This document shows positions 14,513 through 28,731 of a stretch of DNA of 64,000 nt, piece after piece. The notes under the pieces are model-generated. The model had not been told where the DNA came from. It made no database searches and saw only the letters and a program-made list of their open reading frames with translations. Source of the stretch: Desulfovibrio sp. (GTDB lineage: Bacteria; Desulfobacterota; Desulfovibrionia; Desulfovibrionales; Desulfovibrionaceae); assembly GCA_016218665.1 (NCBI GenBank), contig JACRDI010000008.1:186001-250000 (forward strand). The letters are read 5' to 3'. Position 1 is the stretch's first letter. The number at the start of each line of letters is the position of its first letter. Both the position numbers and the translations under genes were made by a program.

Positions 14513-16162
14513 CTAGAGCACCTTGAAGGTCTTCTCGCCGCCGGCGTGGATCACGTGCACCGCGCAGGCGATGCAGGGGTCGTACGAGTGCACCGAGCGC
14601 AGGATCTCCACCGGGCGCTCGGGATCAGCGATGGGGTTGCCCACCAGGCACTCCTCCACGGCGGAGAGCTTGCCCGCGGCGCAGCGCGGCCCCAGGTTCC
14701 AGGTGCTGGGCACCACCATCTGGTAGTTGGCCGTCTTGCCGCCCTCTATGCGTATCCAGTGCGAGAGCCCGCCGCGCGGCGCGGTGACGTAGCCCACGCC
14801 CTTGGCCTTGTCCGGCATCTTCCAGGACCTGCAGATCTCCACGTCCGGGTGCTTGGCCCTTGCGGCAAGGTCCCTGTGCCAGCCGCTGATGAGGTCCACC
14901 AGCACCTGGGTCTCCACCATGCGCGCCGCCGTGCGGCCCAGGGTGGAGAACATGTTCTCCGGCTTCAGGTTGCAGGCGCCCAGCCAGGCGTTCATGAACT
15001 GGAGCGTGGCCTTGTCCCCCCGGGCGTAGGCGATGGCCTGGCGGGCCAGGGGCCCGGTCTCCACGGATTCGCCCTTGTAGCGCGGCGCCTTGACCCAGGA
15101 GTACTTGCCGTTGGGGTCGAAGTCCCCGGGCACGGGCTCGGTGCGACCCTCGTACGGATGCCTGGCCTCGGCCCCCTGGTACCAGCTGCGGGTCACGTCC
15201 TCCTTCAGGGCCCCGGGGTCGAACTCCTCCACCTGCTTCAGGTTGCGCTTCCACATGACGCCGCCCCGGAAGGCCGGGTTCTTGCCGGTCTCGGGGTCGT
15301 GGAAATCGCTGAAGTCCATGTAGTTGGTGGTGCGGCCGTAGACGCAGGCCTCGGGGTAGCGGCGGCCCAGAAGGATCAGGTCGCCCATGTAGTTGTGCCG
15401 CAGGAAGGGGACGCATTCGTCGTAGATGGCCTTGAACTCGGCCAGGCGCTCGGGCTGCAGGCTCTCGTAGCAGGTCACCCCGCCCACGCGCATGGTCTGG
15501 GCGTGGGGGTTCTTGCCGGCGAAGATGGCCCAGGCGTGGGCCAGCTTCACCTGCACGCGCAGGCCCTCCAGGTAGTTGGAGGCGAGGATGAGGTTTTCCT
15601 CGGGCGTCAGCCGGTAGCTGGGGTGCCCGCCCAGGAAGTAGGCGTTGGTGAGCCAGCCCAGCTGGCCGCTCTCCACGAATTTCTTCAGCTTGGCCTGGAC
15701 GATGAAGTAGTCGCCGGGCTGCACCTCCCGCCCGGAGACCTGGGTGGCCAGCTTGGCCGCGGCCACGGGATCGGCCTTGAGCGCGGTGGCCATGTCGAAG
15801 TAGTCCAGCGCGTTCAGGTGGTAGAAGTGCACCAGATGGTCGTGGATGTTGAGCATGCCCAGGATGAGGTGGCGCACCAGCTCGGCGGCCGGGGGCGGCT
15901 TCACGCCCACGGCGTTCTCCACCGCGCGGATGCTGGCCAGGGAGTGGCTGTTGGTGCACACGCCGCAGGCGCGCTGCACGTAGTGGTGCACGTCCTCGGG
16001 CGGGCGGCCCAGCACGATCATCTCAAGCCCGCGGAAGAGCTGGGCGCTGGACCAGGAATTGGCGATGACCCCGTCCTTCACCTCCACATCGATGCGCAAA
16101 TGCCCCTCGATGCGGGTGATGGGGTCCACGGTTATGCGGCCGGTGTATGCTTTCTCTGCCAT
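14513..16162 (-). CDS. hynB: Periplasmic [NiFe] hydrogenase large subunit
   Basis: This subunit carries the Ni-Fe active site for reversible H2 oxidation in the periplasm. The 549-residue protein has the N-terminal ligand pair C66/C69 in RACGVCTNSH (the common form is RICGVC) and the C-terminal pair C530/C533 in DPCIACAVH. A 13-residue extension follows His536. In this family a maturation protease removes it after Ni insertion; that protease gene is not in the window. The subunit has no signal peptide, as expected, because it travels with the Tat-exported small subunit. The ATG is preceded by GGAGGTG, 13 bases after the small-subunit stop. The gene order is that of the HynBA-c3 hydrogenases of Desulfovibrio. 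Confidence 0.97.
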   Translation of the reverse strand: MAEKAYTGRITVDPITRIEGHLRIDVEVKDGVIANSWSSAQLFRGLEMIVLGRPPEDVHHYVQRACGVCTNSHSLASIRAVENAVGVKPPPAAELVRHLILGMLNIHDHLVHFYHLNALDYFDMATALKADPVAAAKLATQVSGREVQPGDYFIVQAKLKKFVESGQLGWLTNAYFLGGHPSYRLTPEENLILASNYLEGLRVQVKLAHAWAIFAGKNPHAQTMRVGGVTCYESLQPERLAEFKAIYDECVPFLRHNYMGDLILLGRRYPEACVYGRTTNYMDFSDFHDPETGKNPAFRGGVMWKRNLKQVEEFDPGALKEDVTRSWYQGAEARHPYEGRTEPVPGDFDPNGKYSWVKAPRYKGESVETGPLARQAIAYARGDKATLQFMNAWLGACNLKPENMFSTLGRTAARMVETQVLVDLISGWHRDLAARAKHPDVEICRSWKMPDKAKGVGYVTAPRGGLSHWIRIEGGKTANYQMVVPSTWNLGPRCAAGKLSAVEECLVGNPIADPERPVEILRSVHSYDPCIACAVHVIHAGGEKTFKVL

Positions 16163-16175
16163 GACGACACCTCCC

Positions 16176-17150
16176 TTAGGCCTTCTCGCCCTTCATGAGG
16201 ACGTCGCGGTTGAACGGAGCGTACTGGTCCCAGAAGCCGGGCTCGCTGCAGCCGATGCAGGGCGCGCCCGCGCGCACGGGCCAGTTGGCCTGGTTGAACT
16301 GGACCGTTGGACAGTTGTTGAACGTGTAGGGGCCGCGGCAGCCGATCAGGTGCAGGCACCAGCCCGCGCGCGCCTGCTTGGACTCGAAGCTGGGCGCGAA
16401 CTCGCCCGCGTCGAAGTGCTTGCGGCGCGGGCACTTGTCGTGGACCGTGGAGCCGAAGAACATCTTGGGCCGGCCCACGGCGTCCAGATCGGGCAGCCCC
16501 TTGGTCAAGAGGTGCACCACGGTTCCGATGAAGTTCACCGGGTTGGGCGGGCAGCCGGAGATGTTGATGGGTTTGATGCCGAGCGGGGCAAACGCCTCGC
16601 CCACGCCCACGGCTCCGCTGGGGTTGGGGGCGGCCGCCTGCACGCCGCCGAAGCTGGCGCAGGTGCCCATGGCGATGACGCCCTTGGCCCCCCCGGCCAC
16701 GCGGGCGAACAGCGAGAGCATGGTCTCCCCGCCGACCCTGCCATACACGCCGCCGCCCTTGGCCGGGATGGCGCCCTCGATGGTGCAGAAGTAGCCCTCG
16801 GGGTTCTGCATGGCCTTTTCCAGGGCCTTCTCGGCCCCGTGGCCGGCCGTGGCCATGAGGCTCTCGCAGTAGTCGAGCGAGATGACCTCCATGATGAGCG
16901 TGTCCACGTAGGGGTCGATGGAGCGCAGGATGGCCTCGGTGCAACCGGTGCACTCCGCCCCGTGCATGTAGATGACACTGGGGCGCTTCTTGCTTTCCAG
17001 GGCGTGGGCCACATCGGCGGCGAAGGCCGGGGGCATGCCCATGGCCGCGGCCACTATGCCGCAGAACATCATGAAGTCGCGGCGGGACATGCGCCCGCCC
17101 TCAAGCTGCCGGTCCAGCAGTTTCGCGGAGATGCGTGTGGTGGAACTCAT
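16176..17150 (-). CDS. hynA: Periplasmic [NiFe] hydrogenase small subunit
   Basis: This subunit relays electrons from the Ni-Fe site through three iron-sulfur clusters. The 324-residue precursor has a Tat signal ([10 protein letters not shown], twin Arg at 23-24) and a likely cleavage site after AFA near residue 44. Proximal cluster ligands include C67 and C70 (ECTGC), MGTCASFGG and SGCPPNP. The later cluster ligands lie in [27 protein letters not shown] and [11 protein letters not shown]. It sits between the cytochrome and the large-subunit gene with short gaps and an AGGAGG ribosome site, so all three are probably co-transcribed. Confidence 0.97.
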
Positions 17151-17162
17151 TGTTGCCCTCCT

Positions 17163-17564
17163 TTACTGCTTCTTGTGGCAGCCGCGGGTGCAGGAAATGG
17201 GCGGCATGGCCTGCTTGGTCAGGCGCTTCTGCTTGTGACACCCCAGGCAGCTGGTCGGGCTCGAATTGTGGAAGGCCCGGAAAAAGCCCGTGGGCTCATC
17301 CAGGCCCGGCTTTATGTGGCACTGGGTGCAGGGCAGAAACTGCCCCAGCGAGCGGTCCGATTCCTCGTGGTGGCAGGCCTTGCAGGGGTTGTACACCGCG
17401 TGGAAGCCGTGCGGGAACTTCACGGACCCGACCCAGGACGATTGCTGCGGGGTTTTCTCAGGGCGCTTGATGACGAGTTCCTTGGGCACCTCGTAGGCCG
17501 ACGCCAAGCCGGAGAGCAGCGCCAGCACTGCCGTTGCCGTTACGATGCAGACGAACTTTTTCAT
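17163..17564 (-). CDS. Tetraheme cytochrome c3-like electron acceptor of the hydrogenase
   Basis: This is a periplasmic class III cytochrome c that probably accepts electrons from the adjacent hydrogenase. The 133-residue precursor has a Sec signal peptide (MKKFVCIVTATAV..., cut after ASA at residue 23). Four heme attachment sites follow: CKACH at 61-65, CTQCH at 79-83, CLGCH at 106-110 and CTRGCH at 125-130. The last is a CX3CH site; classical c3 has CX2CH or CX4CH there. The motif KFPHGFH near 49-55 is typical of c3 and would supply distal His ligands. The ATG at 17564 follows GGGAGGAGG, which favours it over an in-frame upstream ATG at 17609. It is the first gene of the operon. Confidence 0.9.
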   Translation of the reverse strand: MKKFVCIVTATAVLALLSGLASAYEVPKELVIKRPEKTPQQSSWVGSVKFPHGFHAVYNPCKACHHEESDRSLGQFLPCTQCHIKPGLDEPTGFFRAFHNSSPTSCLGCHKQKRLTKQAMPPISCTRGCHKKQ

Positions 17565-17600
17565 TTCCTCCTCCCGAATAAAGAATGTCCGACATATGAC

Positions 17601-17628
17601 ACCATACATGATCCGGGGGGGCGGTCAA
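17601..17628 (-). promoter_or_regulatory. Probable sigma-70 promoter of the hydrogenase operon
   Basis: On the minus strand TTGACC (17628-17623) is followed after 16 bases by TATGGT (17606-17601). It lies about 37 bases upstream of the cytochrome start codon and would drive the cytochrome, small-subunit and large-subunit genes. Confidence 0.6.
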
Positions 17629-17812
17629 GGAGGGTGACCACGCTTTTGCGTCTTCTCGCCGGAGGCGCGCGCAAGAAAGCCATGCGGTCACGGGCAGGCA
17701 GGCCCCAGGCTGCAGGGCCTCCCGTGGCCCCAGCGCCCCCCGGCCCGGATGAAGAACAGCGCGATTGCAAACGAGAGGACAGGAGTGGGACACGGCGGAG
17801 GCCACAACGAAA

Positions 17813-17842
17813 AACCCCTTACGACTCGCATCGTAAGGGGTT
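17813..17842 (-). terminator. Orphaned tRNA-type terminator next to a tRNA-Phe 3' remnant
   Basis: Twelve-base arms (AACCCCTTACGA and its complement) surround a six-base loop, with a T-run on the minus-strand exit side. It stands in the same position relative to the tRNA remnant at 17851 as the terminator at 28538 does to intact tRNA-Phe. It is probably the ancestral tRNA-Phe terminator, displaced by insertions. Confidence 0.65.
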
Positions 17843-17850
17843 GATTTCTC

Positions 17851-17867
17851 TGGTGCCGAGGGAGAGA
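17851..17867 (-). repeat. Short tRNA-Phe 3'-end remnant (outer attachment scar)
   Basis: Seventeen bases are identical to the outer end of the 19126 copy of the tRNA-Phe 3' end, including the CCA end and the variant base that distinguishes that copy from the intact gene. The match stops abruptly at 17868. It marks the far edge of an older integration at the same tRNA. Confidence 0.6.
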
Positions 17868-18016
17868 CGAGCCGTGCGAATCTCCTCAACACTCAACAGC
17901 CTGGGATGACAGGCAATCTCTTCAGAGGCGGGTACTGGTTGTACGTGCGCGTTGTACCTTGGGCGTGTACTGTGGGCGAGTCCAACCCCGCCAGCGATTC
18001 CTTAAGACGCCTTGAA

Positions 18017-18388
18017 CTATGCAAGGATGCGTCGGAAAATCTCACTCAGGACTATGGCAACGACGATGATTTTCAGATTGAGCATGTACGGATGAGCTTT
18101 CGCATAGACCTGGAGCTTGGTGTTGGCTTCTGGGAAGCGGTTCACCCACATCCGGATACACCAAATGCCGAAGAACACGACTACTGGCACGGTGAACAGC
18201 ACAACTCGCGCACCCAAGGTGTCCCTTAATGTCGGAGCCGTATGTCCAGGCCGCACCTGAGAGTTTGTCACAAGCAAAACAACCCAGGTCGCGACATACA
18301 AGGGGGCCACGATGTCCAGCGCGCGGGCAAGAACGGATTTGGCTTTGAGCATACGCAGTTCTGTCGCATGGCCGCCGGAGGAGGTCAA
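18017..18388 (-). CDS. Small membrane protein, unrecognised
   Basis: A 123-residue protein with about three hydrophobic helices (near 27-47, 64-82 and 104-120) and no recognisable family. Translation may instead begin at the Met at residue 13 (18352). It lies between the two tRNA-Phe 3' scars, immediately downstream of a broken integrase gene, so it is probably leftover cargo of an old integrated element. Codon use is less GC-biased than in the flanking chromosome. An overlapping plus-strand reading frame at 17906-18229 looks less protein-like. Confidence 0.5.
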   Translation of the reverse strand: MTSSGGHATELRMLKAKSVLARALDIVAPLYVATWVVLLVTNSQVRPGHTAPTLRDTLGARVVLFTVPVVVFFGIWCIRMWVNRFPEANTKLQVYAKAHPYMLNLKIIVVAIVLSEIFRRILA

Positions 18389-19019
18389 TCACCCATCGCG
18401 GCATGAGTGGGGTGCGAGGATGACGGGGGACTCGTGGCGTACTGGTCCGAGTAGTCACCCACGGCCCTGGCCTGCCCAATACGTGCTGCCTCCACTTCTC
18501 GCTTCATGACCTCCAAGGCGAAGCGGCGATACCCTGGGGAGTCCTTCTCCAGGGCGATGCCGTGTTCCTTCAGCAAGCCATCAACTGTGGACTCGAAGAA
18601 CTGGATGCTGTTGCGGCCAGGGCATCCTTCGTCTTGGCTTCCAGGGTGCGGAGTACCTCGGCATGGCCAGCAGGGAAGGCTGTGTCGAATGGACCTGGGG
18701 TGCTTGCCTTCTGGTTCTCCCAGTCTTCAAGTGCATCGCTCACGAGGCGGTCAAGGATGCGCTGGAGCTTCTCTGGGGTGCCGTCTGCGGTGGTCATCGA
18801 GGTGGGGCCTCCCTGCATGGTATCGAGCCTGACGAGGAATCGAGCAACAGCAGCACCTACCTGCTGGGCCTTGGCCCTGGCAAGCCTCACGTAGCCTGTG
18901 CCGAGGGTCCGCTTGATTTCCGTCCTGTCGAGGAGTGGACGCAGGCGATGGGGTACAGCGAGGCGGAAGTACCAGACGCCACCCTGACGATGAAGATGGG
19001 ATGGGCTGAAACGAAACAT
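18385..19019 (-). pseudogene. Frameshifted, truncated phage-type integrase (N-terminal part)
   Basis: The first frame (19019 to about 18600) reads like the start of a tyrosine recombinase of the DUF6538 type: GGVWYFRLAVPHRLRPLL, then KRTLGTGYVRLARAKA. The frame then shifts near 18600-18630. The next frame continues the expected sequence with FFESTVDGLL and KEHGIALEKDSPGYRRFA down to 18385. The catalytic domain with Arg, His and Tyr is absent. This is a dead integrase of an earlier element, on the opposite strand to the live integrase at 19329. It could be a single sequencing frameshift, but the missing catalytic half argues for real decay. Confidence 0.75.
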
Positions 19020-19125
19020 CGGGCCAAACCTTTGCGGCTTGTACCCGATGCTTGTACCTGTCTCGTGGGCAGGTTCTGGGAGACTGACTCAACGTCGAAT
19101 CATTCCGAATCGTTGAGGAACTTGC

Positions 19126-19172
19126 TGGTGCCGAGGGAGAGAATTGAACTCCCCACACGGGGATTTTCAGTC
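19126..19172 (-). repeat. Left attachment copy: displaced tRNA-Phe 3' part
   Basis: The copy covers tRNA nucleotides 30-76 including the GAA anticodon and CCA end. It differs from the intact gene at 19140 and 19150 only. These correspond to tRNA positions 62 and 52, which pair in the T-stem: A-U here, G-C in the intact gene. Identity ends at 19173. Confidence 0.9.
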
Positions 19173-19288
19173 GCCATCCTGTGTTTCATCGACTATCACT
19201 TTTCATGCCCGCAAACCTTGACTATCAGGCAATCCCCTCTTATCGTCTTTCACGTGAACTCACCCCAGAACACCCTTTTTCACCGGAA

Positions 19289-19311
19289 AAAGTAGTACAG
19301 GGGTAGTACAA
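19289..19311 (+). repeat. Left copy of a 23-bp arm-type repeat
   Basis: A 23-bp sequence with two GTAGTAC heptamers separated by AGGG. It is identical and in the same orientation at 28496-28518 near the other end of the island. It lies 18 bases before the integrase start codon. It is a likely integrase arm site, possibly also autoregulatory. Confidence 0.75.
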
Positions 19312-19328
19312 CTTTTCAGGGGGTCGGC

Positions 19329-20555
19329 ATGGCGATTTCATGGAAAACTGCGGTGAAGGGCGTCCGCTACCGGGAGCACCCCACACGCAAGCACGGCAAG
19401 CGGGCTGACCGCTATTGGGCCTTGCAGTACAAGTTGCACGGCAAGGTCATCAATGAGGCCGTGGGCTGGTGGTCTGACGGGCACAACCAGGAAGAGGCCG
19501 AGGGCTACTTGCGGACGCTGCGCCAGAATTGGAACTCCGGCGAAGGGCCGCAGACCCTTGTGGAGATTCAAGCCGAGGGCAAGGCCCTGCGGACAGAAGA
19601 GGCCCGCCGCGACATTTCCCTTGCCGACTACTGGACGGAGAATTACGCGCCCCAGGCCCAGCAAGGCAAACGCCCTGAAACTTGGCGGGGTGAAGAGCGC
19701 AACATGCGCTTTTGGCTGGCCCCGGCAGTTGGGCAAATGCCGCTGCGCAAGATTCACCCCCGCAATCTGGAAGCACTGCGGCAGAAGATGGTTGCCGAGG
19801 GCAAGGCCACCAGAACGATTCAGCACGTGCTGGCAACCCTGCGGGCCGTCTGGAAACATGCGAAGCGCTGGGGAGTGGTTGAAGGCGACTGCCCGGCCAA
19901 GGGCGTAGAGCTTGGGCGCATCGACAACGGGCGCGTCCGCTTTCTGGACCCTGCCGGGGTGAATGAGTTACTAGACGCGGTGCGGGAACGAGACGAAAAC
20001 GCTTGGCGCTTGTGCCTCATGGCCTCGCACACCGGGGCGCGGCTTGGGGAGCTTGCGGCGCTTCGCTGGGCTCATGTTGACCTTGCCGGGGGCTATCTCA
20101 CGCTGGTTCACACCAAGACGGGCAAGCCCCGCGCCTTCCCCATGACTCCGCAGGTTGCGGCAATGCTGGCAGAGATTGGGCCGGGCGCTGCAAATGAGCT
20201 TGTGCTGACCAACGCGGACGGCAACCCCTGGCGGACCCAGCCGAACGCCTTCCGCCGGGCCGTGGCTGCGCTGGGCCTGAATGACGGGCGCACGGACGCA
20301 CGGGAAAAGATCGTGTTCCATTCCCTGCGGCATAGCGCCGCCTCGCTCATGTTGGCGGGGGGCGTTGACGCGCGCACCATCATGGAGCTTTTCGGCTGGT
20401 CCACCCTCGCCATGCTCCAACGCTACACACACCCCGGAGCCGAAGCCAAGGCCCGCGCCGTTGCTACGCTTGGGGCAGCCATGAACGCGCAACCCGGCAA
20501 GGTATTGCCCTTCAAAAGAGCTGGCGGGAGTCCTCTTGACAGCACGGCACGATAG
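19329..20555 (+). CDS. int: Tyrosine recombinase integrase of the island
   Basis: This enzyme catalyses site-specific integration and excision at tRNA-Phe. The 408-residue protein has an N-terminal arm-binding region, a SAM-like core-binding domain (~97-190) and the catalytic domain. The active residues are visible: R238 in TGARLGEL, K263 in HTKTGKPR, H331 and R334 in FHSLRHSAAS, W357 and nucleophile Y366 in QRYTHP. The ATG at 19329 is preceded by CAGGGGG. It sits directly inside the left attachment copy and reads into the island, the classic arrangement. The 23-bp repeat overlaps its leader. Confidence 0.95.
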   Translation: MAISWKTAVKGVRYREHPTRKHGKRADRYWALQYKLHGKVINEAVGWWSDGHNQEEAEGYLRTLRQNWNSGEGPQTLVEIQAEGKALRTEEARRDISLADYWTENYAPQAQQGKRPETWRGEERNMRFWLAPAVGQMPLRKIHPRNLEALRQKMVAEGKATRTIQHVLATLRAVWKHAKRWGVVEGDCPAKGVELGRIDNGRVRFLDPAGVNELLDAVRERDENAWRLCLMASHTGARLGELAALRWAHVDLAGGYLTLVHTKTGKPRAFPMTPQVAAMLAEIGPGAANELVLTNADGNPWRTQPNAFRRAVAALGLNDGRTDAREKIVFHSLRHSAASLMLAGGVDARTIMELFGWSTLAMLQRYTHPGAEAKARAVATLGAAMNAQPGKVLPFKRAGGSPLDSTAR

Positions 20556-20577
20556 CACTATCTGATAGCAGGAAGAT

Positions 20578-20832
20578 ATGAACAACAGGCAGCGAAAAAC
20601 ACTAGCGGCGGTCTTTGCCTTACCCGCTTCGGGCAGCATCCATTGGGCGGACATAGAAGCGCTGCTTATTGCCGCAGGGGCCAGGGTTGTGGAAGGGCGC
20701 GGTTCACGTGTCCGCTTTGTGGCGGGGGCGCTGGTAGCCACCTTCCATCGGCCCCACCCGGAAAAAGAGGCCAAGCCGTACCAGGTGCGGGCGGCAAAGG
20801 AATTTCTTGCAGAAATAGGAGTGAAGCCATGA
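20578..20832 (+). CDS. hicA: HicA-family toxin
   Basis: An 84-residue HicA-type mRNA interferase, the toxin of a type II toxin-antitoxin pair. It has the double-stranded RNA-binding-like fold signature with a conserved His in ATFHRPHPEKEAKPYQ and the ending VRAAKEFLAEIG. Its stop codon overlaps the antitoxin start as ATGA. It begins 22 bases after the integrase gene and may be read from the same transcript, which would help stabilise the island. Confidence 0.88.
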   Translation: MNNRQRKTLAAVFALPASGSIHWADIEALLIAAGARVVEGRGSRVRFVAGALVATFHRPHPEKEAKPYQVRAAKEFLAEIGVKP

Positions 20833-21155
20833 GCACCATGACGTACAAGGACTACAGCGCCCGGATTGAGTTTAGCGACGAGGACGGCTGCTTCATTGGC
20901 CGTATGGCGGGCATCCGTGATATCGTCACCTTCCACGGCGATTCCGTGGCGGAGCTGCGCGCGGCCTTTGAAGAGGCCGTCAACGACTACCTTGAAACCT
21001 GCGAGCGTGAAGGGCTAAAGCCCCAGCGCCCGTATTCTGGCAAGGTGATGCTGCGCATCCCCCCAGAGGTCCACGCCCGCGCGGCCATGCAGGCCGAGGC
21101 CCACGGCAAGTCGCTCAACCAGTGGGTGGCCGAGGCTCTGCGGCACGTGAATTAG
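20829..21155 (+). CDS. hicB: HicB-family antitoxin
   Basis: A 108-residue partner of HicA. The N-terminal half is a degraded RNase H-like HicB fold (YSARIEFSDEDGCFIGRM, then GDSVAELRAAFEEAVNDYLE). The C-terminal half is a ribbon-helix-helix DNA-binding segment (RIPPEVHARAAMQAEAHG, then SLNQWVAEAL) that should autoregulate the operon. The start overlaps the hicA stop by four bases. A terminator-like hairpin follows at 21181. Confidence 0.92.
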   Translation: MSTMTYKDYSARIEFSDEDGCFIGRMAGIRDIVTFHGDSVAELRAAFEEAVNDYLETCEREGLKPQRPYSGKVMLRIPPEVHARAAMQAEAHGKSLNQWVAEALRHVN

Positions 21156-21180
21156 GCGGGGTCCAGGGCCGGAACGTAGA

Positions 21181-21216
21181 GAAAGGCCGCGAGTCCGGGT
21201 GGAGTGGCGGCCTTTC
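21181..21216 (+). terminator. Hairpin after hicAB
   Basis: Ten-base arms (GAAAGGCCGC and its complement) surround a 16-base loop, 25 bases after the hicB stop. There is only a short T stretch inside the right arm, so termination strength is uncertain. Confidence 0.55.
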
Positions 21217-21399
21217 GAGTGATGATCGTGCGTGGCGCGGCTTGTGCGGGGCCTTGCATGGGTAAGATATAAGCCCGCAGTTGTTCTGTGTCAACATTTC
21301 CAGGGCCTAGGGGCGGCCTAATTACCCGTCCCGAAAAGCTGCCTGCCCCTGGCGGCCTGGCCCTGGACTCTACAAGGGGATAGCGAAGGGGGCTTGCGC

Positions 21400-22593
21400 A
21401 TGGAATATATCGACGGCCAAGCTGTTCTTAAGAAGTACGGCATATCTGTAGGCGAACTCGTGAAGGCCATTCACGACGGGCTCCCGGCATATGACGCGGT
21501 TACTGGAAAGAGGGTCATTGACCAAGACATGATGATTGCCTGTCCAAAGTACGAAACAGAAGAGCAAGCCGCTAAAGCTGTCGATTATGTTGACAACATG
21601 CTTGCGGCAACACGGATGAGTCAGGGAATGCCGCCATTTCGTGACTATTCACATTCAGGGGCAGGTTACATAGACGCCGTTGTGCGGAAGGATAAAGTTC
21701 AACTCTTTTTGAAGAATTGCAAATCATATAAGTTTCCAGAAGGATATGACCAACCACAAGAGCCTTGCGGCATATTCCCGCTGCGGTACGACACATTCCA
21801 CCGTGAATATGCAGAAGCAGTGCATCTTAAGATGCATGGCGACAACGAAACCGTAATCGGATTGTATCAAAAGCTCATCGGGGCGATGCGCCTTCCCGTG
21901 GCGGCTGTTGAAGAACGATTTAGAAAGGCTTCCTCAGACAGTGGGATTGATATCCGCCATGTGCCGCTTACGCCGGGGCAAGACTGGCTTGGGAACACAG
22001 ACCCTCTCCTGAACCGAAAGCAGATAGCCCGCCCCATTTCTGTCTTTGATCTGCTTGCCAGGTGGTCGGGCGCATCCGGCGAAAGCATGGGCGCACTCTC
22101 TGAAAGGCTTGTGCGATTCCACAAACATGGCGCTCTGCATCTCTTTGAGCCCCAGCAAAAGGGGCCGCGCATTCTGTACGCCCCTTCAACAAAAGACGCG
22201 GCGGCAATCGAGATTGATTGTGCGGCGGCTTCGCATGACAGATGGACGGAAGGAAGCCAGGCCGCCAACGATTTGTCCGGCCTCTTTGCGGACATGGCCG
22301 AAGTGGAGGCCCTTGAGGCTCAATACGATTCCTTGAAGCCTATAGCTTCCGACAACAGCGGCCAGGAGCCCGGACAGGTTGCGCCGATGGGGATAGTTGA
22401 AGCTGAAGATACGCCAGGGGCCAAGCCCACACCTGAAAACATGCTTCGGATGCACCAGGCAAACCCGGAGAAGTGGACTCGTAAGGCGCTGGGAGACAAG
22501 TATTTTCGCAATTCTCCAGGCGAGAATGACGAAACGGTCAAAAGTCGCCTTCAACGGTATCTCGCCAAGATCAGCAAAAGGCCAAAAGCATAA
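21400..22593 (+). CDS. Unrecognised island protein of lower GC
   Basis: A 397-residue protein that I do not recognise. The N-terminus (YIDGQAVLKKYGISVGELV, then LPAYDAVTGKRV) looks like a winged or AlpA-like helix-turn-helix segment. The middle is charged, mixed alpha/beta sequence. The C-terminus (MLRMHQANPEKWTRKALG, then LQRYLAKISKRP) resembles a second helical DNA-binding segment. The ATG at 21400 follows GAAGGGGG and is preferred over an in-frame TTG two codons upstream. Its codon use is clearly more AT-rich than that of its neighbours, which suggests separate acquisition. It sits between the integrase/HicAB module and the replication module, a usual cargo position. Confidence 0.7.
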   Translation: MEYIDGQAVLKKYGISVGELVKAIHDGLPAYDAVTGKRVIDQDMMIACPKYETEEQAAKAVDYVDNMLAATRMSQGMPPFRDYSHSGAGYIDAVVRKDKVQLFLKNCKSYKFPEGYDQPQEPCGIFPLRYDTFHREYAEAVHLKMHGDNETVIGLYQKLIGAMRLPVAAVEERFRKASSDSGIDIRHVPLTPGQDWLGNTDPLLNRKQIARPISVFDLLARWSGASGESMGALSERLVRFHKHGALHLFEPQQKGPRILYAPSTKDAAAIEIDCAAASHDRWTEGSQAANDLSGLFADMAEVEALEAQYDSLKPIASDNSGQEPGQVAPMGIVEAEDTPGAKPTPENMLRMHQANPEKWTRKALGDKYFRNSPGENDETVKSRLQRYLAKISKRPKA

Positions 22594-22600
22594 TTGACTG

Positions 22601-22758
22601 GTGCATGGTGCATGGGGGGGTGCATTTTTGAACCGAGTATGCACCTCTCGTCTTATGTTGCCCTGTGCGAGTATTCTTCATTGATTCCAAAACATTCCAA
22701 GCTGCAAAAAACTTTCTGTCACATAGCATAACTGTGCTTGATGCACCGCCCCAGGTGC
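22601..22758. promoter_or_regulatory. Cluster of GTGCAT/ATGCAC motifs upstream of the AlpA-like gene
   Basis: In the 233-bp gene-free stretch, GTGCAT occurs at 22601, 22608 and 22620, and its complement ATGCAC at 22639 and 22741, with GGTGCA at 22754. The pair at 22620/22639 can form a hairpin. The pattern suggests binding sites for a regulator of the replication module that follows. Confidence 0.4.
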
Positions 22759-22826
22759 AACGGACACTTCTAGGAACTGGTGGGACATTGGTCCTCGCCG
22801 GAACCTAGAACCCGGAGCACAGCACA

Positions 22827-23057
22827 ATGAACACCGACTCTTACGCCGAACTCGAAAGAACCCTGCCTCCAATCCTCTCCCGAACCGAAGTCCCAAAGCT
22901 CACAGGCGGCCTAATCTCCGCCGGGCGCTTGGCAAACTTGGATTGCCTGGGCCAAGGGCCGCGCCGCATTACCTTGGGCCGCAAGGTGGGCTACACCCGC
23001 GCCGATTTCATCGCGTGGATGCGCTCACGTGGCGGACAGTCCGAGGTGGAAGGGTAG
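22827..23057 (+). CDS. AlpA/excisionase-like small DNA-binding protein
   Basis: A 76-residue protein with a winged-helix-like arrangement: PPILSRTEVPKLTGG as the helix-turn-helix, then ITLGRKVGYTRADFIAWMRS as the wing and last helix. That ending is typical of AlpA/Xis-type regulators of P4-like elements. It precedes the primase-helicase gene, as in many satellites. It could act as an excisionase or as an activator. The ATG at 22827 has no strong ribosome site. Confidence 0.65.
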   Translation: MNTDSYAELERTLPPILSRTEVPKLTGGLISAGRLANLDCLGQGPRRITLGRKVGYTRADFIAWMRSRGGQSEVEG

Positions 23058-23062
23058 CCGCC

Positions 23063-23275
23063 ATGCAGAAAACAGAAAACCCCGGATTCGTGGTCCGGGG
23101 CTCTGTGCTGGTGCTGAAAGTCTGCGTTGCTTGTGAGACTTTCTTACACCGGGCGGGCCTCGCCGTCAAACTCTGGACCCTGCGCTGGCTGCGCACCCTC
23201 ACCTCTGAAATGGGCATGGCCTGTAGCCGATGGACTGACAGGCTCACCATTGCCATTGAAGGGGGGAGCCGATGA
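23063..23275 (+). CDS. Small island protein, unrecognised
   Basis: A 70-residue basic, Leu/Trp/Cys-containing reading frame from ATG 23063. It ends in a TGA that overlaps the start of the primase-helicase gene (ATGA), which supports translational coupling. No family was recognised. An AAGGGTAG site lies just upstream. It could be only a coupling leader for the large gene. Confidence 0.45.
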   Translation: MQKTENPGFVVRGSVLVLKVCVACETFLHRAGLAVKLWTLRWLRTLTSEMGMACSRWTDRLTIAIEGGSR

Positions 23276-26178
23276 CAAGCGCCGTGAATGCCTTCCGCGC
23301 CCGGTTGGAAGAGGCCGGGCTTGTGCCTGGGGAGATCATCGCGGACGGCCAGCTCCACCGCTGCGCCACGGTGACAAAGCCCCGGTCCGTGAACGCTGCC
23401 TACATCGCTCACCTGGACGAACCGCCTTCTCTCTGGTGGCTTGATTGGGCCACGGGCCAGGGGGGCACCTGGACCGCCAAGGAAGAACGCACCCTGAGCC
23501 CAGCCGAGCGCCAGGCGCTACAGGCCCGTATCGAGGCGGACCGCCGCGCACGACAAGAGGAAGAGGTCAAGCGCCATGCCGAGGCCCGCGACAAGGCCCG
23601 GCGCATCCTGGCCGAAGCCACGGAATGCACGGCGCACCCCTACCTTGAGCGCAAGGGCGTGAAGCCCTGCCCCGGCCTCAAGATCGGCACGGACGGGCGG
23701 CTGGTGGTGCCTTTGCTGGGAGAGGACGGCAAGCCTGTGTCGCTGCAATTCATCGCAGAGGACGGCGGCAAGCTGTTTCTCGCTGGCGGGCGCACCAAGG
23801 GCGGATACTTCGCAATCAAGGGGGCCGCTGGCCCGCTCTACATTGCCGAGGGCTTGGCAACGGGCCTGAGCATCCTTGAGGCCACGGGGCAAACGGTCCT
23901 CTGCGCCTTCAACGCCGGGAACCTTGAGCACGTGGCGGCCCTGGCCCGGCAGAAGTACCCGGACCGGGAGCTTGTGCTTTGCGCAGACGATGACCACGGC
24001 ACAGACGGCAACCCCGGCCTGAGCAAGGCGACTGCGGCGGCCCTGTCCGTGGGCGCATCCTTGGCCGTGCCGAGCTTCAAGGAACCTGCCGGGCGCACTG
24101 ACTTCAACGATCTGCACCAAGCAGAGGGCCTGGACGTGGTGCGGGCGCAACTGGCGGCGGCTGCGAAGCCCGAGGCCGTTCCCGTATCTGCGAAGAACAG
24201 GAAGAGCACAGGGAGTGCGCTGGGCAACTCTTTCTCCCTCCGTGACTCCGGCGTGTTCTTCATGGAGGTGGATAAAGACGGCAACCCGGAATGGCACTGG
24301 GTATGCTCCCCGCTGCGCATCCTGGCCCGCACACGGAATGCGGACGGCCAAGCCTGGGGGCATCTCTTGGAAGTGCTTGACCCTGAAGGCCACGCGCACC
24401 GTTGGGCCATGCCTGCAAGCCTCATGGCTGGAAGTGGTGACGCCTACCGCGCCGAATTGCTGTCCCTGGGCCTGGGCATCGCACCTGGCTTGAAAGGCAA
24501 GCAACGCCTGGACCTCTTCTTTAGCACGGCCAAGGTTGACGGCTTCGCCCGGTGTGTTGACCGCATCGGCTGGCAGGGCAACGCCTTTGTGCTGCCTGAT
24601 TCGGTTTACGGTGAACAGGCCGGGGAATTGATCGTGCCGCAGGGCATCCCGAGTGAAAATCCGTTCCGCCAGAAAGGAAGCCTTGAAGAATGGCGGGAGC
24701 ACGTGGGCCGCGTCTGCGCTGGAAACTCCCGGCTTGTTCTGGCTGTGTGCACGGCCTTGGCCGCGCCGCTCTTGGAGCCTTTGGGCCAGGAATCCGGGGG
24801 CCTTCATATGGTGGGCGGCTCTTCTCTGGGCAAGACAACTGCGCTACGCGTGGCCGGGTCCGTGTGTGGCGGCGGGCCGGGCGGATTCATCAAGCAATGG
24901 CGGGCCACGGACAACGGACTTGAAAGCATCGCGGCGGCCCACTGTGATGCGCTCTTGTGCCTGGACGAAATGGGCCAGGCCGGGAGCAAGGTAGTTTCCG
25001 AGGTGGCTTACATGCTGGCGAACGGCCAGGGCAAGGGCCGTGCATCTCGGGACGGCCAGGCCCGCAAGGTTCACACGTGGCGCTTGCTCTTCCTTTCCAC
25101 TGGCGAGATCACGCTTGCGGACAAGGTGGCAGAGGACGGCAGGGGCCGGGCCAAGGCCGGGCAGGCCGTGCGCGTGGTGGACATTCCCGCCGATGCTGGG
25201 GCCGGGCTCGGACTGTTTGAGGCTTTGCACGGGTGCGAGAGTGCGGACCTGTTCGCCCGCCAGTTGAAAGAGGCATCGGCCAACTACTACGGGACGCCGC
25301 TCCGGGCCTTCCTGCAAGCCCTGGCAGCGGACCGCGACACGCTCACCCGTCAGGGGCGAGAGATCATGCACACCTTCGAGACGGACAACTGCCCCGAGGG
25401 CGCGGACGGGCAAGTGCGCCGGGTGTGTGGGCGCTTCGCGCTGGTGGCCGCCGCCGGAGAGCTTGGCGTTTCCCTTGGGGTGCTGCCCTGGCCCGCTGGC
25501 GAGGCTTCCAAGGCCGCCGCTACATGCTTCAAAGCCTGGGTTGAACAGCGCGGAGGCACGGGCGCGGCAGAGGTGACGGCAGGACTTGAGCAGGTCCGGC
25601 GCTTTTTCCAGGCGCACGGGGCTGCCCGTTTTGAGGACTTGGATTCGGAAGAGCACCGCGCCGTTGTCAACCGTGCCGGATACCGCCGCCGCGAGAATGG
25701 CGAGGCCGTGTTTCTGGTGTTCCCCGAGGTGTTCCGGCAAGAGGTCTGCGCGAGCTGCAATCACAAGATGCTGGCGGGGGAGCTTGTCCGCCGTGGCCTG
25801 ATTGAGGCGCAACACCCACACCAGACAAGGAAGCTGCGCAATCCCGCAGGGCGCTTCTATGTCGTGCGCGCTGCAATTTTGAGTGGGGACGGTGGGGACA
25901 GTGGGGACACGCTAGAGCCCCAACGGTTTGAACTGTCCCCAGTTGTGGGAAAGCCGAGTGGGGACAGTGGGGACACCCGGCCCCCGGATGCCCCGTCCCT
26001 GGCAAGCGTCCCCAGTGTCCCCAGTGACGAATTGACAGAGTGGGGACGGCGCGAAGCAAGCAATACCAACGATGTCCCCAGTGTCCCCAGTGTCCCCAAT
26101 GAAAACAGCATAAGCGCAACAATTCGCCCGAATACTGCGCCTGGCTGTGAGCCCTTACCGGACCGGGTGACAATATGA
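23272..26178 (+). CDS. TOPRIM primase / DUF927 helicase fusion (P4-alpha-like replication protein)
   Basis: This 968-residue protein should prime and unwind the excised element's DNA. A primase-like N-terminus is followed by a TOPRIM domain with LYIAEGLATGLSIL near 190 and the acidic motif CADDDHG at 238-244. The DUF927 ATPase/helicase domain has Walker A GGSSLGKTT at 515-523 and Walker B LLCLDEMGQ. A C-terminal winged-helix-like part follows (VFLVFPEVFRQEV). The last ~100 codons are low complexity, with SGDGGDSGD and SVPSVPS repeats encoded by an iteron-like DNA array. Both its start and its stop overlap neighbouring genes by four bases. Confidence 0.92.
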   Translation: MTSAVNAFRARLEEAGLVPGEIIADGQLHRCATVTKPRSVNAAYIAHLDEPPSLWWLDWATGQGGTWTAKEERTLSPAERQALQARIEADRRARQEEEVKRHAEARDKARRILAEATECTAHPYLERKGVKPCPGLKIGTDGRLVVPLLGEDGKPVSLQFIAEDGGKLFLAGGRTKGGYFAIKGAAGPLYIAEGLATGLSILEATGQTVLCAFNAGNLEHVAALARQKYPDRELVLCADDDHGTDGNPGLSKATAAALSVGASLAVPSFKEPAGRTDFNDLHQAEGLDVVRAQLAAAAKPEAVPVSAKNRKSTGSALGNSFSLRDSGVFFMEVDKDGNPEWHWVCSPLRILARTRNADGQAWGHLLEVLDPEGHAHRWAMPASLMAGSGDAYRAELLSLGLGIAPGLKGKQRLDLFFSTAKVDGFARCVDRIGWQGNAFVLPDSVYGEQAGELIVPQGIPSENPFRQKGSLEEWREHVGRVCAGNSRLVLAVCTALAAPLLEPLGQESGGLHMVGGSSLGKTTALRVAGSVCGGGPGGFIKQWRATDNGLESIAAAHCDALLCLDEMGQAGSKVVSEVAYMLANGQGKGRASRDGQARKVHTWRLLFLSTGEITLADKVAEDGRGRAKAGQAVRVVDIPADAGAGLGLFEALHGCESADLFARQLKEASANYYGTPLRAFLQALAADRDTLTRQGREIMHTFETDNCPEGADGQVRRVCGRFALVAAAGELGVSLGVLPWPAGEASKAAATCFKAWVEQRGGTGAAEVTAGLEQVRRFFQAHGAARFEDLDSEEHRAVVNRAGYRRRENGEAVFLVFPEVFRQEVCASCNHKMLAGELVRRGLIEAQHPHQTRKLRNPAGRFYVVRAAILSGDGGDSGDTLEPQRFELSPVVGKPSGDSGDTRPPDAPSLASVPSVPSDELTEWGRREASNTNDVPSVPSVPNENSISATIRPNTAPGCEPLPDRVTI
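25884..26098. repeat. Twelve GTCCCCA/TGGGGAC iteron-like repeats
   Basis: TGGGGAC occurs at 25884, 25893, 25902, 25959, 25968 and 26041. GTCCCCA occurs at 25935, 26008, 26017, 26074, 26083 and 26092. Adjacent copies are spaced 9 bp apart, and the two orientations alternate in blocks. All lie inside the 3' end of the primase-helicase gene. Confidence 0.9.
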
Positions 26179-26456
26179 CCGCCGCCCATTGGATTGAATC
26201 CCGAGGCGTCCGGGTCTGGGCAGAGGGTGACTTGCTCACTTTGGAGGGGCTGGCCGCTCTTGATCCGGAACAGGCGTCCGAGGTGTTGCATTTCGCCCGG
26301 CAGAACAAGGCGCGGCTGTTGGAAGAGCTTGGGGGGCCTCCGGGCCTCCCGGTCCGCCCCTGCCTGGGGTGCGGCAAGCCGTTCACGCCGTCTGATGAAA
26401 ACAAGGTCTTTTGCCGGGCCAGGTGCTTCAACACCATGCGCGGGGTGCTGCAATGA
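26175..26456 (+). CDS. Small zinc-finger-like island protein
   Basis: A 93-residue protein. The first half is a short helical segment (RVWAEGDLLTLEGL). The C-terminal part has a CX2C...CX3C arrangement (CLGCGKPFTP, then FCRARCFN) that would bind zinc. Start and stop both overlap neighbouring genes as ATGA, so it is coupled to the primase-helicase upstream and the nuclease downstream. Its function is unknown; a DNA-processing accessory role is plausible from context. Confidence 0.65.
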   Translation: MTAAHWIESRGVRVWAEGDLLTLEGLAALDPEQASEVLHFARQNKARLLEELGGPPGLPVRPCLGCGKPFTPSDENKVFCRARCFNTMRGVLQ

Positions 26457-26923
26457 AAATCATCCGCGACACCCGCGAGCAAGCGCCGTTCACCTTCGCC
26501 GGGTATGACTGCGAGGTGGTGGCCGGAACGCTCACCACGGGCGACTACAGCCTTGCCGGGCTGCTGGACCGCTGCGCCGTCGAGCGCAAGAGCCTGGACG
26601 ATCTGCTGGGCTGCCTCACTGGCGAAGGCCGGGAGCGTTTCGAGAGGGAGCTTGCCCGCGCCCGTGGCCTGGACGCCTTTGCCGTGGTGGTGGAGGTGAG
26701 CTTTCAGGACATGGCGGAAGGCCGCTACCGGAGCAAGATGAAGCCACACGCGGCGCTGCAATCGGTTCTGGCCTTCCAGGTCCGCTACCGTGTTCCCTTC
26801 CTCTGGTGCGGAACCAGGGCCGGGGCAGAGTACGCGGCCTATCACTTCCTGCGGCACTATCTGCGGGAAGCGTCCACCAGATACAAGAGCATCCTTGAGG
26901 CCCACGGGCCGCAGGCAGCATAG
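26453..26923 (+). CDS. ERCC4-type nuclease domain protein
   Basis: This 156-residue stand-alone nuclease is of the XPF/ERCC4 family, which cuts branched or flapped DNA. The catalytic signatures are RDTREQ at 5-10, GDYS at 30-33 and ERKSLDDLL at 44-52. No helix-hairpin-helix domain follows, so it depends on a partner for DNA recognition. It is translationally coupled to the upstream zinc-finger protein and probably acts in replication or recombination of the element. Confidence 0.88.
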   Translation: MKIIRDTREQAPFTFAGYDCEVVAGTLTTGDYSLAGLLDRCAVERKSLDDLLGCLTGEGRERFERELARARGLDAFAVVVEVSFQDMAEGRYRSKMKPHAALQSVLAFQVRYRVPFLWCGTRAGAEYAAYHFLRHYLREASTRYKSILEAHGPQAA

Positions 26924-26934
26924 GAGCTAATGAC

Positions 26935-27723
26935 ATGGCGAAACGTAAGGCAAAAGAAAAGCCCACGGACAAGGCCCCGGTGAAGATGCGGGAAATGACC
27001 CCGGCGGAACAGGCCAGATATGAAGCGTACAAGGCGCGGAAAGCGGCTACGCCTGAGCCGCTGAAATATGAAGAGAGGGAAGCACGGGACGGGGTGCGGC
27101 AGTTGGTCAACCGCCAGGATGCCCCGCCAGGCTTTGAAGTATCGGCAATGGCGGCGGCAACGGGCACAGTTGACCTTGGTGCGGGCACGGGCTTGATAAA
27201 TCAGGTAGGCAACGCTGTGCCCACGTATAGCGACCCCGTAGCCCACGGAAACGACATCATCGCCAGAATGACGGACATAGCCCCTAGTGACGGCCTGGAA
27301 GGGATGCTAGCCGCTCAAATGGTGACGTGCCACAACGCGGCGATGGAGTGTATGCGCCGGGCTCACGTGGACAAACAGACCCTTGAGGGCCGCAAACTCA
27401 ACCTCACCTTCGCAGATCGTTTCCTGCGAACCTTCACGGCGCAGGTGGAGGCCCTGGCGAAGTATCGGGGCAAGGGCCAGCAAAAGGTGACTGTGGAGCA
27501 TGTCCACGTCCACCAGGGCGGGCAAGCCATTGTCGGCAACGTGACAACCGGGGGAGGGGGGCATGGAACAGGAAATGACGGCACAACCTCAAGCCAGCGC
27601 GCAATCGAGGCCGCCGGAGAATCAATCACGCTTCGATCTGCGGACGGTGCGGAAGTGTGGGGCGCGTTGCAAGGGAACGGGGAAGCCGTGCCAGCAACCC
27701 GCGATGCCGAACGGGCGCTGTAA
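26935..27723 (+). CDS. Conserved-looking island protein of unknown function
   Basis: A 262-residue protein. It has a basic Lys-rich N-terminus, a helical middle (LEGMLAAQMVTCHNAAM, then FADRFLRTFTAQVEALAKYR) and the distinctive strand VEHVHVHQGGQAIVGNV followed by a Gly-rich linker. I associate that strand with an uncharacterised family found near phage and integrative-element genes, but I cannot name a function. Its 3' part overlaps the next gene by 161 bp in another frame, so the real C-terminus after the Gly-rich linker may carry little structure. Confidence 0.65.
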   Translation: MAKRKAKEKPTDKAPVKMREMTPAEQARYEAYKARKAATPEPLKYEEREARDGVRQLVNRQDAPPGFEVSAMAAATGTVDLGAGTGLINQVGNAVPTYSDPVAHGNDIIARMTDIAPSDGLEGMLAAQMVTCHNAAMECMRRAHVDKQTLEGRKLNLTFADRFLRTFTAQVEALAKYRGKGQQKVTVEHVHVHQGGQAIVGNVTTGGGGHGTGNDGTTSSQRAIEAAGESITLRSADGAEVWGALQGNGEAVPATRDAERAL

Positions 27724-27871
27724 GCTACATGGCGGAAAATCTCCCGGCCCCCCAAAGGGCAACCGCAACGCTTGGAAGCATGGGCGGTACTCGGCAGAGG
27801 CCATAGCGCATAGGCGGGAGTTGCGGGCCTTGCTGCGAGAGATGCAAGAGACGGCGAAACGGGCAGGGTGA
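27563..27871 (+). CDS. Small Cys/His protein of the HGGKSPGPPKGN type
   Basis: A 102-residue protein with a Cys-rich core (KCGARCKGTGKPCQQPAMP, then GRCKLHGGKSPGPPKGN) and the ending WKHGRYSAEA. The spaced Cys and His residues suggest a metal-bound knuckle. Such proteins occur near terminase-like genes in other elements, but a function cannot be stated. The ATG follows GGGAGGGGGG. It overlaps the previous gene by 161 bp. Confidence 0.65.
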   Translation: MEQEMTAQPQASAQSRPPENQSRFDLRTVRKCGARCKGTGKPCQQPAMPNGRCKLHGGKSPGPPKGNRNAWKHGRYSAEAIAHRRELRALLREMQETAKRAG

Positions 27872-27965
27872 GCAGGGCAAGGGCGTAGACAGGACTTGAG
27901 GCCGGGGGCATTGGTTCCCGGCCTTACCATTTGGCGGTATATGGCGTGGGTCCGCAGAACAGGAA

Positions 27966-28289
27966 TTACTCTCTATTTCGTGTCATGTCATATGCTATGA
28001 ATAGCATACCTGTTCCAGAAAGAACTATCCACACGTAGAATCCATTTATTGAAAGCTTTGACAACACGGCATACATAACAAATAGAACAATGAAATTGAC
28101 AATACCTTTTTTGCCTAAATAGAATTGTGCTATTGCTGGATTCAGTAGGCAAAGGGCTAGTCCAGTTCTTAAGCTCTTTGGCCTGTTTCTTGCCCGTCTA
28201 AGTAGAAGCAAAGGGATAATGAGAAGTAGCGTAAGAACAACGAGAACTGGCACTAGAGCTAGCCATTGACTTCCAGCGCTTGCATCCAT
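27966..28289 (-). CDS. Small multi-helix membrane protein, lower GC
   Basis: A 107-residue protein with an N-terminal hydrophobic helix (~9-30), a basic loop with RRARNRPKS, and two further helices near 65-80 and 84-100. The middle segment LCLLNPAIAQFYLGKKG recalls TM2-domain proteins, which have a helix-hairpin-helix membrane fold. It is the only minus-strand gene inside the island and is AT-rich relative to its surroundings. It could be cargo such as an immunity or exclusion factor; there is no direct evidence. Confidence 0.55.
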   Translation of the reverse strand: MDASAGSQWLALVPVLVVLTLLLIIPLLLLRRARNRPKSLRTGLALCLLNPAIAQFYLGKKGIVNFIVLFVMYAVLSKLSINGFYVWIVLSGTGMLFIAYDMTRNRE

Positions 28290-28495
28290 AACGCCTCTCC
28301 CCTTGCTCTACCAATTCTGAGTCCGTACCACGCACCCACCAGCTACCGCCCAAGCTCGCACACTTGATATTGCCAGACCTGTACATGACCTGGGGGAGAA
28401 GGGCAAGCGTGGGCCGTGATAGGCGTGGCATGGTCGGGAAGGTACAGGGGTTAATTCAACCCGTGGGGATGGAAGCCTGAGGCCATTTTCCTGCC

Positions 28496-28518
28496 AAAGT
28501 AGTACAGGGGTAGTACAA
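28496..28518 (+). repeat. Right copy of the 23-bp arm-type repeat
   Basis: Identical to 19289-19311. It lies 57 bases inside the right attachment core, whereas the left copy lies 116 bases inside the left core. A partial third copy (GTACAGGGG) is at 28442. On the circularised element these repeats would flank the core, as integrase arm sites do. Confidence 0.75.
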
Positions 28519-28537
28519 AACGGTGGAGGCAAAGAAA

Positions 28538-28567
28538 AAGGGCTTGCGGTTTAACCCGTAAGCCCTT
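28538..28567 (-). terminator. Terminator of tRNA-Phe
   Basis: Twelve-base arms with one G-T wobble surround a five-base loop. A TTTTTCTTT stretch follows on the minus-strand exit side. It lies 8 bases beyond the tRNA 3' end, on island DNA, so the element itself supplied the terminator for the host tRNA. Confidence 0.8.
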
Positions 28568-28575
28568 GATCTTTC

Positions 28576-28651
28576 TGGTGCCGAGGGAGGGAATTGAACC
28601 CCCCACACGGGGATTTTCAGTCCCCTGCTCTACCAACTGAGCTACCTCGGC
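28576..28651 (-). tRNA. tRNA-Phe (GAA)
   Basis: A complete 76-nt cloverleaf on the minus strand: acceptor GCCGAGG/CCTCGGC, D-arm GCTCAGTTGGTAGAGC, anticodon loop CTGAAAA with GAA at 28618-28616, T-loop TTCAATT and encoded CCA. Nucleotides 30-76 are duplicated at 19126-19172, making this gene the integration target. Its 3' part was therefore supplied by the element. A weak promoter (TTGCCA, 17 bases, TAGTTC) lies just upstream at 28696-28668. Confidence 0.97.
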
Positions 28652-28731
28652 GCGTTGTGAGAAAGGTGAACTACCCGATGAGCCCCCTCTTGGCAAGCGA
28701 AAAATGGAGCGACCCGGCCTGAAACATCCGG

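Follow-up and report, generated by a model that had tools for sequence, protein, structure and literature searches.

An integrative element in a Desulfovibrionaceae tRNA-Phe gene and the compensated T-stem pair between its attachment copies

When a mobile element lies in a tRNA gene that has nevertheless stayed whole, it may be asked whose sequence the 3' half of that gene now is. This question is raised by a stretch of 64,000 nucleotides from Desulfovibrio sp. (GenBank assembly GCA_016218665.1, contig JACRDI010000008.1, positions 186,001 to 250,000 of the forward strand), hereafter the window, in which a 9.4-kb element (19173–28575) is inserted in the tRNA-Phe gene. The attachment copies at its two ends (attL and attR) differ by a compensated pair of the T stem, a difference from which the direction of exchange can be read. 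The genome, here designated G000 (with its relatives as G001 and upwards), probably belongs to the genus Humidesulfovibrio.

The intact gene, a 76-nucleotide tRNA-Phe(GAA) recognised by both ARAGORN and Rfam (RF00005), runs from 28651 to 28576 on the minus strand, and only one tRNA-Phe gene turned up in the window genome. The 47 bp of its 3' part (28576–28622, tRNA positions 30–76) recur in the same orientation at 19126–19172. Direct comparison of the copies revealed exactly two mismatches, at 19140/28590 (a/g) and 19150/28600 (t/c), which correspond to tRNA positions 62 and 52, partners in the T stem. This pair reads A-U in the displaced left copy and G-C in the intact right gene, and one more base agrees outside the 47-bp copies (19125/28575). 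The first-pass annotation had described this duplication and its two partnered differences, and the description is confirmed. By our count, partner pairs represent 7 of the 1081 two-site combinations within the 47-bp stretch, which makes two paired differences by chance alone unlikely without excluding them; the main support for a non-chance pairing comes from the alleles of relatives rather than from this count. Both A-U and G-C occur at 52–62 as real tRNA-Phe alleles in relatives, in agreement with the earlier claim that two functional alleles were involved.

The interval is bounded by a whole tRNA gene and a same-orientation 3' fragment and holds a tyrosine integrase, an anatomy that, like the alleles and the relatives, is directly observed. 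Very probably, it was produced by an integrative element that carries its own tRNA-Phe 3' half as attachment site (attP) and that replaced the previous half on insertion. In the proposed mechanism, attP would extend from the anticodon loop to the CCA end and include a terminator, and the tyrosine integrase would recombine it with the corresponding part of the tRNA-Phe gene in the chromosome. The strands would be exchanged within the anticodon loop or close to it, on the 5' side of position 52; promoter and 5' half would remain where they are, the element's G52-C62 half would complete the gene, and the previous A52-U62 half would be pushed to the far end of the element. Since the delivered half contains both strands of the T stem, the stem may differ from that of the host as long as its pairs are kept. 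The G-C half was most likely brought in by the resident element together with the terminator, which may be seen in a hairpin and T-run just 3' of the tRNA and inside the element (28535–28568, minus strand), recognised from the sequence and by comparison with relatives. Positions 1–29 of the intact gene would then be of host origin and the part 3' of the crossover derived from the element. The exact crossover, the direction of replacement and the mobility of the element are what we infer here.

The place of strand exchange was approached by comparing 12 pairs of displaced and intact copies, 11 of them on one contig each, plus that of G007. Identity within these pairs starts at tRNA position 24, 27, 28, 29, 30 or 32; in the window it starts at 30, within the anticodon stem-loop, and the displaced copy of G005 starts at 32 in our reading. 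The latest start, 32, coincides with the base at which the anticodon loop begins. Because all 12 pairs begin at 24–32, strand exchange is inferred to occur at the seven-nucleotide anticodon loop, 5' of position 52. This loop is described as a standard place of strand exchange (PMC8371274). The first-pass annotation had called identity through the anticodon stem-loop unusually far for such elements; this view was rejected, as the Islander table counts 2083 anticodon-centred islands and 1836 of the T-stem region (PMC4383910).

The integrase also points to this target. Matches at E<=1e-60 were found in 84 of 288 genomes of the family, the window's own included. The four best relatives in tblastn, G087 (62% identity) and G097, G095 and G092 (47–49%), all adjoin a tRNA-Phe 3' half, with a whole tRNA-Phe gene further along the same contig. 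For a 48% relative near a contig end in G014, no tRNA-Phe half was found in the stretch examined. At lower identity the target differs: another integrase of G014 (36%) adjoins tRNA-Leu. The island to which the latter belongs, at tRNA-Leu(TAA) (L113, G014:C37, 796–7850), has HicAB (89–93%), a DUF927 primase (76% over 308 aa) and an ERCC4 nuclease (79%) in common with the window element, and by sequence comparison appears to be the same cargo with integrase and target exchanged. Scanning GTDB contigs and viral contigs for the integrase yielded no confirmed relatives.

Evidence on the direction of replacement comes from the alleles of relatives. A whole tRNA-Phe gene was recovered in 13 of the 15 genus genomes, with A-U at 52–62 in ten (G002, G003, G004 and G007–G013) and G-C in three (the window genome, G001 and G006); G005 retains only a displaced A-U half, and no tRNA-Phe was recovered from G014. 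Two A-U genomes, G002 and G012, apparently represent uninterrupted sites, since the same genes lie directly downstream of their tRNA-Phe (the first with 93% amino acid identity), genes that are also met in the distal flank of G005, about 10.5 kb on. Both fall in another part of the gyrA tree than the window genome, whose sister is G010, likewise A-U (support 98/99 on DNA and 100/100 on protein). gyrA was used in place of rpoB, which the window genome did not yield; several forks of the trees are weak, and the gyrA of G006 is incomplete. Forcing the three G-C genomes into one clade costs 65.8 log-likelihood units on gyrA DNA, and G-C as a single-clade trait was rejected (p 7.3e-6); the fewest allele changes on that tree are three. 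In addition, two collections, which overlap with the genus genomes, were scanned for the 47-mer with R52 and Y62. The scan matched 17 stretches, 13 A-U and 4 G-C, and a mixed pair (A-C or G-U) occurred in none of them. Both genomes of another genus (G029 and G240) likewise have the G-C allele, which shows a possible source of it, not its route. The prediction made beforehand, A52-U62 in relatives, thus held in 10 of the 13 genus genomes in which the gene is whole, G010, G002 and G012 among them, and the opposite state, island-free relatives with G52-C62 and no left-copy allele anywhere, was not seen. By the alleles of relatives, the earlier claim that the element supplied the present 3' half is most likely right.

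Compensated differences of this kind recur in other genomes. Over positions 32–75, displaced copies were compared with a whole tRNA-Phe from the genome in which they lie, the copies being taken among the matches listed for 288 genomes (181 with a match; 40 chosen genomes were repeated), for 348 genomes from the order (a displaced-type match in 21) and for 12 genomes (8 with a whole gene). Among these, 22 displaced copies were compared, 19 of which are identical to the whole gene and three differ. Seventeen copies lie on the same contig as the gene, in 16 genomes (G000, G009, G036, G087, G092, G095, G097, G184, G188, G251, G257, G262 with two copies, G263, G268, G286 and G294), and five on another contig (G007, G071, G119, G272 and a second copy in G263). 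The differing copies are those of the window genome at 52–62, G188 at 51–63 and 52–62, and G272 at 52–62, the last from a fragmented draft with copies on different contigs that may not be partner ends. All eight differing bases form compensated T-stem pairs. The search patterns leave 48–52, 62–65 and a few other positions free, and the observation that only the T stem differs is unbiased just for columns 48–52 and 62–65. Before this count, G220, G229 and G237 (both copies whole genes), G208 (match reaching back to position 18), the displaced copies of G005, G028 and G120 (no whole gene found) and the decayed copies of G001 and G002 (missed by the patterns, seen by BLAST) were dropped. Other genomes with two matches were left out, many of which have them on separate contigs, on opposite strands or spaced by about 200 bp; in those listed, both matches read alike over the matched 44 bases.

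Beyond the left copy, traces of an earlier insertion were detected. A third and most distal tRNA-Phe 3' fragment (17851–17867, minus strand, positions 60–76) was identified by alignment to relatives; it carries U62, and its similarity runs on into the flank (17777–17867), where a native-type hairpin and T-run follow downstream, also on the minus strand (17810–17842). Between this fragment and the left copy lie 1.26 kb (17868–19125), which, being flanked by tRNA fragments, probably represent the remnant of an older element. They include an integrase-type N-terminal fragment (DUF6538, PF20172; 18570–19019, minus strand) whose protein has matches at E<=1e-12 in three other genus genomes (15 searched); those in G010 and G002 lie on contigs other than that of the tRNA-Phe gene. 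Furthermore, the alignments of relatives to the left copy end at 19118–19126, so its 3' flank differs from the flank of their genes. The simplest history suggested by this array is one of successive insertions rather than a single one. From an oldest state with a host tRNA-Phe carrying U62, the older element would have inserted, so that the host end stayed behind at 17851 and the gene received an A-U half; the present element would then have pushed this half to 19126 and supplied G-C. The displaced left copy would thus probably be the older element's half, of the same allele as the genus standard. A strict reading of the left copy as the primordial host half was rejected, since the older remnant adjoins it. 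Of the earlier claim that the host allele was replaced, the replacement most likely stands, and the identification of the displaced half as the original host half probably does not.

Other explanations of the compensated pair assign the two alleles differently. Some tyrosine integrases are described as using the T-loop or the 3' end of tRNA genes (PMC4383910; PMC8371274), and with an exchange at the 3' end, beyond position 62, the intact G-C gene would be entirely the host's and A-U would belong to the attP flank. This is improbable: an attP stretch that never becomes part of a tRNA would not stay identical from the anticodon loop onwards or remain paired, displaced copies start at 24–32 in 12 genomes, and A-U is the common allele of the genus, with U62 present in the older distal remnant. 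The least probable explanation holds that the left copy decayed after integration and that the pair was hit by chance. Displaced copies do decay, as observed in the distal copy of G001 (a 2-nt deletion and substitutions) and in the remnant of G002, but the state of the left copy equals the common functional allele of the genus, 8/8 differing bases in three genomes are compensated, and partner pairs make up 7/1081 of the two-site combinations in the 47-bp stretch. Likewise very unlikely, if slightly less so, is that the host was already G-C, that an earlier element brought A-U, and that homologous recombination or gene conversion set the present gene. The older remnant next to the left copy and the G-C state of G001 and G006 are in line with such a course, but the most distal fragment, in which the oldest half is expected, carries U62, the sister G010 is A-U, and conversion would have had to end between the copies with no mixed pair as a result.

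Points in favour of a replacement of the previous half by that of the element include A-U in the sister G010 and in G002 and G012 and U62 in the third fragment. Several observations weigh against it. No excised circle or empty site of the same strain was seen, and the site in G010 may not be empty. The gyrA protein tree groups G001 with G006 (85/80), and two allele changes then suffice by eye. In G001 both tRNA-Phe copies are G-C, so either G-C predates that insertion or both halves were G-C. Over 28487–28702, which covers the tRNA plus 51 host-side bases, the element end next to the tRNA matches G013 at 89%, and its match to G003 is at 80%; these nearest relatives of that end carry A-U, so the element lineage is not uniformly G-C. 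Finally, the T arm alone forms its usual five-pair stem with G-U as well as with G-C and A-U, but fails to do so with A-C, and both mixed forms of the tRNA pass ARAGORN, which makes a stepwise mutational route possible. RNAfold returned no cloverleaf for the whole 76-nucleotide sequence, and neither that result nor the acceptance of stems by ARAGORN was used as proof; the absence of mixed intermediates is only suggestive.

A broader proposition is that T-stem alleles of tRNA-Phe in Desulfovibrionaceae change mainly through the traffic of integrative elements rather than by stepwise mutation, with scattered two-base switches and no visible intermediates. Elements would carry an independently evolving 3' half gene that is transplanted between species, and its internal pairing would be kept by the need for a working tRNA at every integration. 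We advance this only tentatively, as it is weakened by the folding of the G-U stem and by a protein tree that allows fewer G-C origins.

Mechanistically, this is what is already established for islands in tRNA genes, of which the window offers an unusually readable and well-supported case. As in the anticodon-centred islands of Islander, an intact tRNA gene and a displaced 3' fragment stand at the ends, an integrase lies inside and the gene is restored (PMC4383910); what sets the window apart is the compensated T-stem pair by which its attL and attR halves can be told from each other. A close parallel is the Mycobacterium smegmatis phage Boilgate, a phage unlike the window element, which integrates at a tRNA-Lys (attB-4) with a 43-bp core and five differences between attP and attB; there too, exchange was placed before the first mismatch and the tRNA is still predicted to be functional and to fold (PMC10865867). 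The excerpts of that account consulted mention neither paired compensation nor allele frequencies in relatives (PMC10865867). With the tRNA-dependent lysogeny of Fionnbharth, the window element shares an integrase directed at the 3' half of such a gene. Fionnbharth has a core of about 10 bp and a phage tRNA that complements the broken gene (PMC10865867), whereas the window shows 47-bp copies, a rebuilt gene and a single tRNA, ARAGORN having detected no further one in the 64 kb. No discussion of compensated attL/attR differences was found in the excerpts of the literature searched, which is weak evidence of absence, and among the titles and abstract openings listed no closer case stood out. What the locus adds is that a textbook inference, the supply of the tRNA 3' half by the element, can here be read off the sequence itself, the alleles of the two halves being distinct and each functional in its own right. 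Should this hold generally, some of the variation in bacterial tRNA sequences would stem from exchange by mobile elements; this would bear on the use of tRNA sequence as a vertical marker and on the explanation of compensatory changes that seem to skip intermediates.

The genes of the element, all on the plus strand, begin next to the left copy with the tyrosine integrase (408 aa, PF00589; 19329–20555). It is followed by a HicA-type toxin (PF07927; 20578–20832) and a HicB-type antitoxin (PF05534; 20829–21155) forming a toxin-antitoxin pair, an int-alpA RNA (RF02996, 47.8 bits against a cut-off of 35.8; 21300–21378) and a 399-aa protein without a family match (21394–22593). A 76-aa protein (22827–23057) resembles AlpA or an excisionase by eye only, has no family match and has similar proteins in related islands. 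Family searches further identified a primase-helicase (Toprim and DUF927; 23272–26178) and an ERCC4-type nuclease (26411–26923), and the protein at 27563–27871 has weak similarity to a terminase small subunit (phrog_1889, E 1.8e-7). Paired GTAGTAC repeats, spaced 11 bp apart, were found by motif count at the integrase end (19292/19303, spanning 19292–19309) and at the tRNA end (28499/28510, spanning 28499–28516); the element ends hold four of the six occurrences in the window, and these pairs are likely the arm sites of the integrase. Satellites of the P4-like or PICI-like (phage-inducible chromosomal island) type combine an integrase, a regulator and a primase module and lack virion genes. 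Like them, the window element is small and has an integrase, an int-alpA RNA and a primase-helicase; the regulator candidate is the 76-aa protein without a family hit, and the terminase-small-like protein is a weak match. This make-up appears to fit a small satellite-like integrative element, perhaps of the P4-like or PICI-like kind. A second island in the same genome (L118, G000:C40, 5175–8818) has an integrase 40% identical and a 76-aa protein 84% identical to those of the window element.

Further observations concern the tRNA-Phe site and its surroundings. In G001, the 10-kb interval at tRNA-Phe (L031, 1–12001) holds a very long repetitive adhesin-like open reading frame (ORF) and a transporter-like ORF, read by eye as two-partner secretion, and no ORF of at least 110 aa in it was recognised as an integrase. 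Downstream of tRNA-Phe (L104, L048, L047 and L042), a shared helicase-like ORF lies within about 3 kb in G010, G006 and G007 and a methylase-like ORF in G008, both read by eye as restriction-type genes; the site may be a hotspot for defence genes. G220 has two whole tRNA-Phe genes 10.5 kb apart (G220:C5:24971 and 35539) with different 3' flanks, which could reflect an element with a whole gene or an ordinary duplication. A query with the tRNA against a phage collection returned 138 records, five of them at 90–95% identity and none higher. A viral contig of IMG/VR (L230) carries a tRNA-Phe 3' half with a T stem of the G52-C62 type and no preceding 5' half, probably an attP or a far-end attachment site. 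Just beyond the array in the window (14513–17609), a hydrogenase small-subunit-like gene (16176–17150) is accompanied by large-subunit-like and cytochrome-like ORFs (named by eye); its sole match above 61% among the 14 other genus genomes is in G004 (82%), on a contig other than that of the tRNA-Phe gene.

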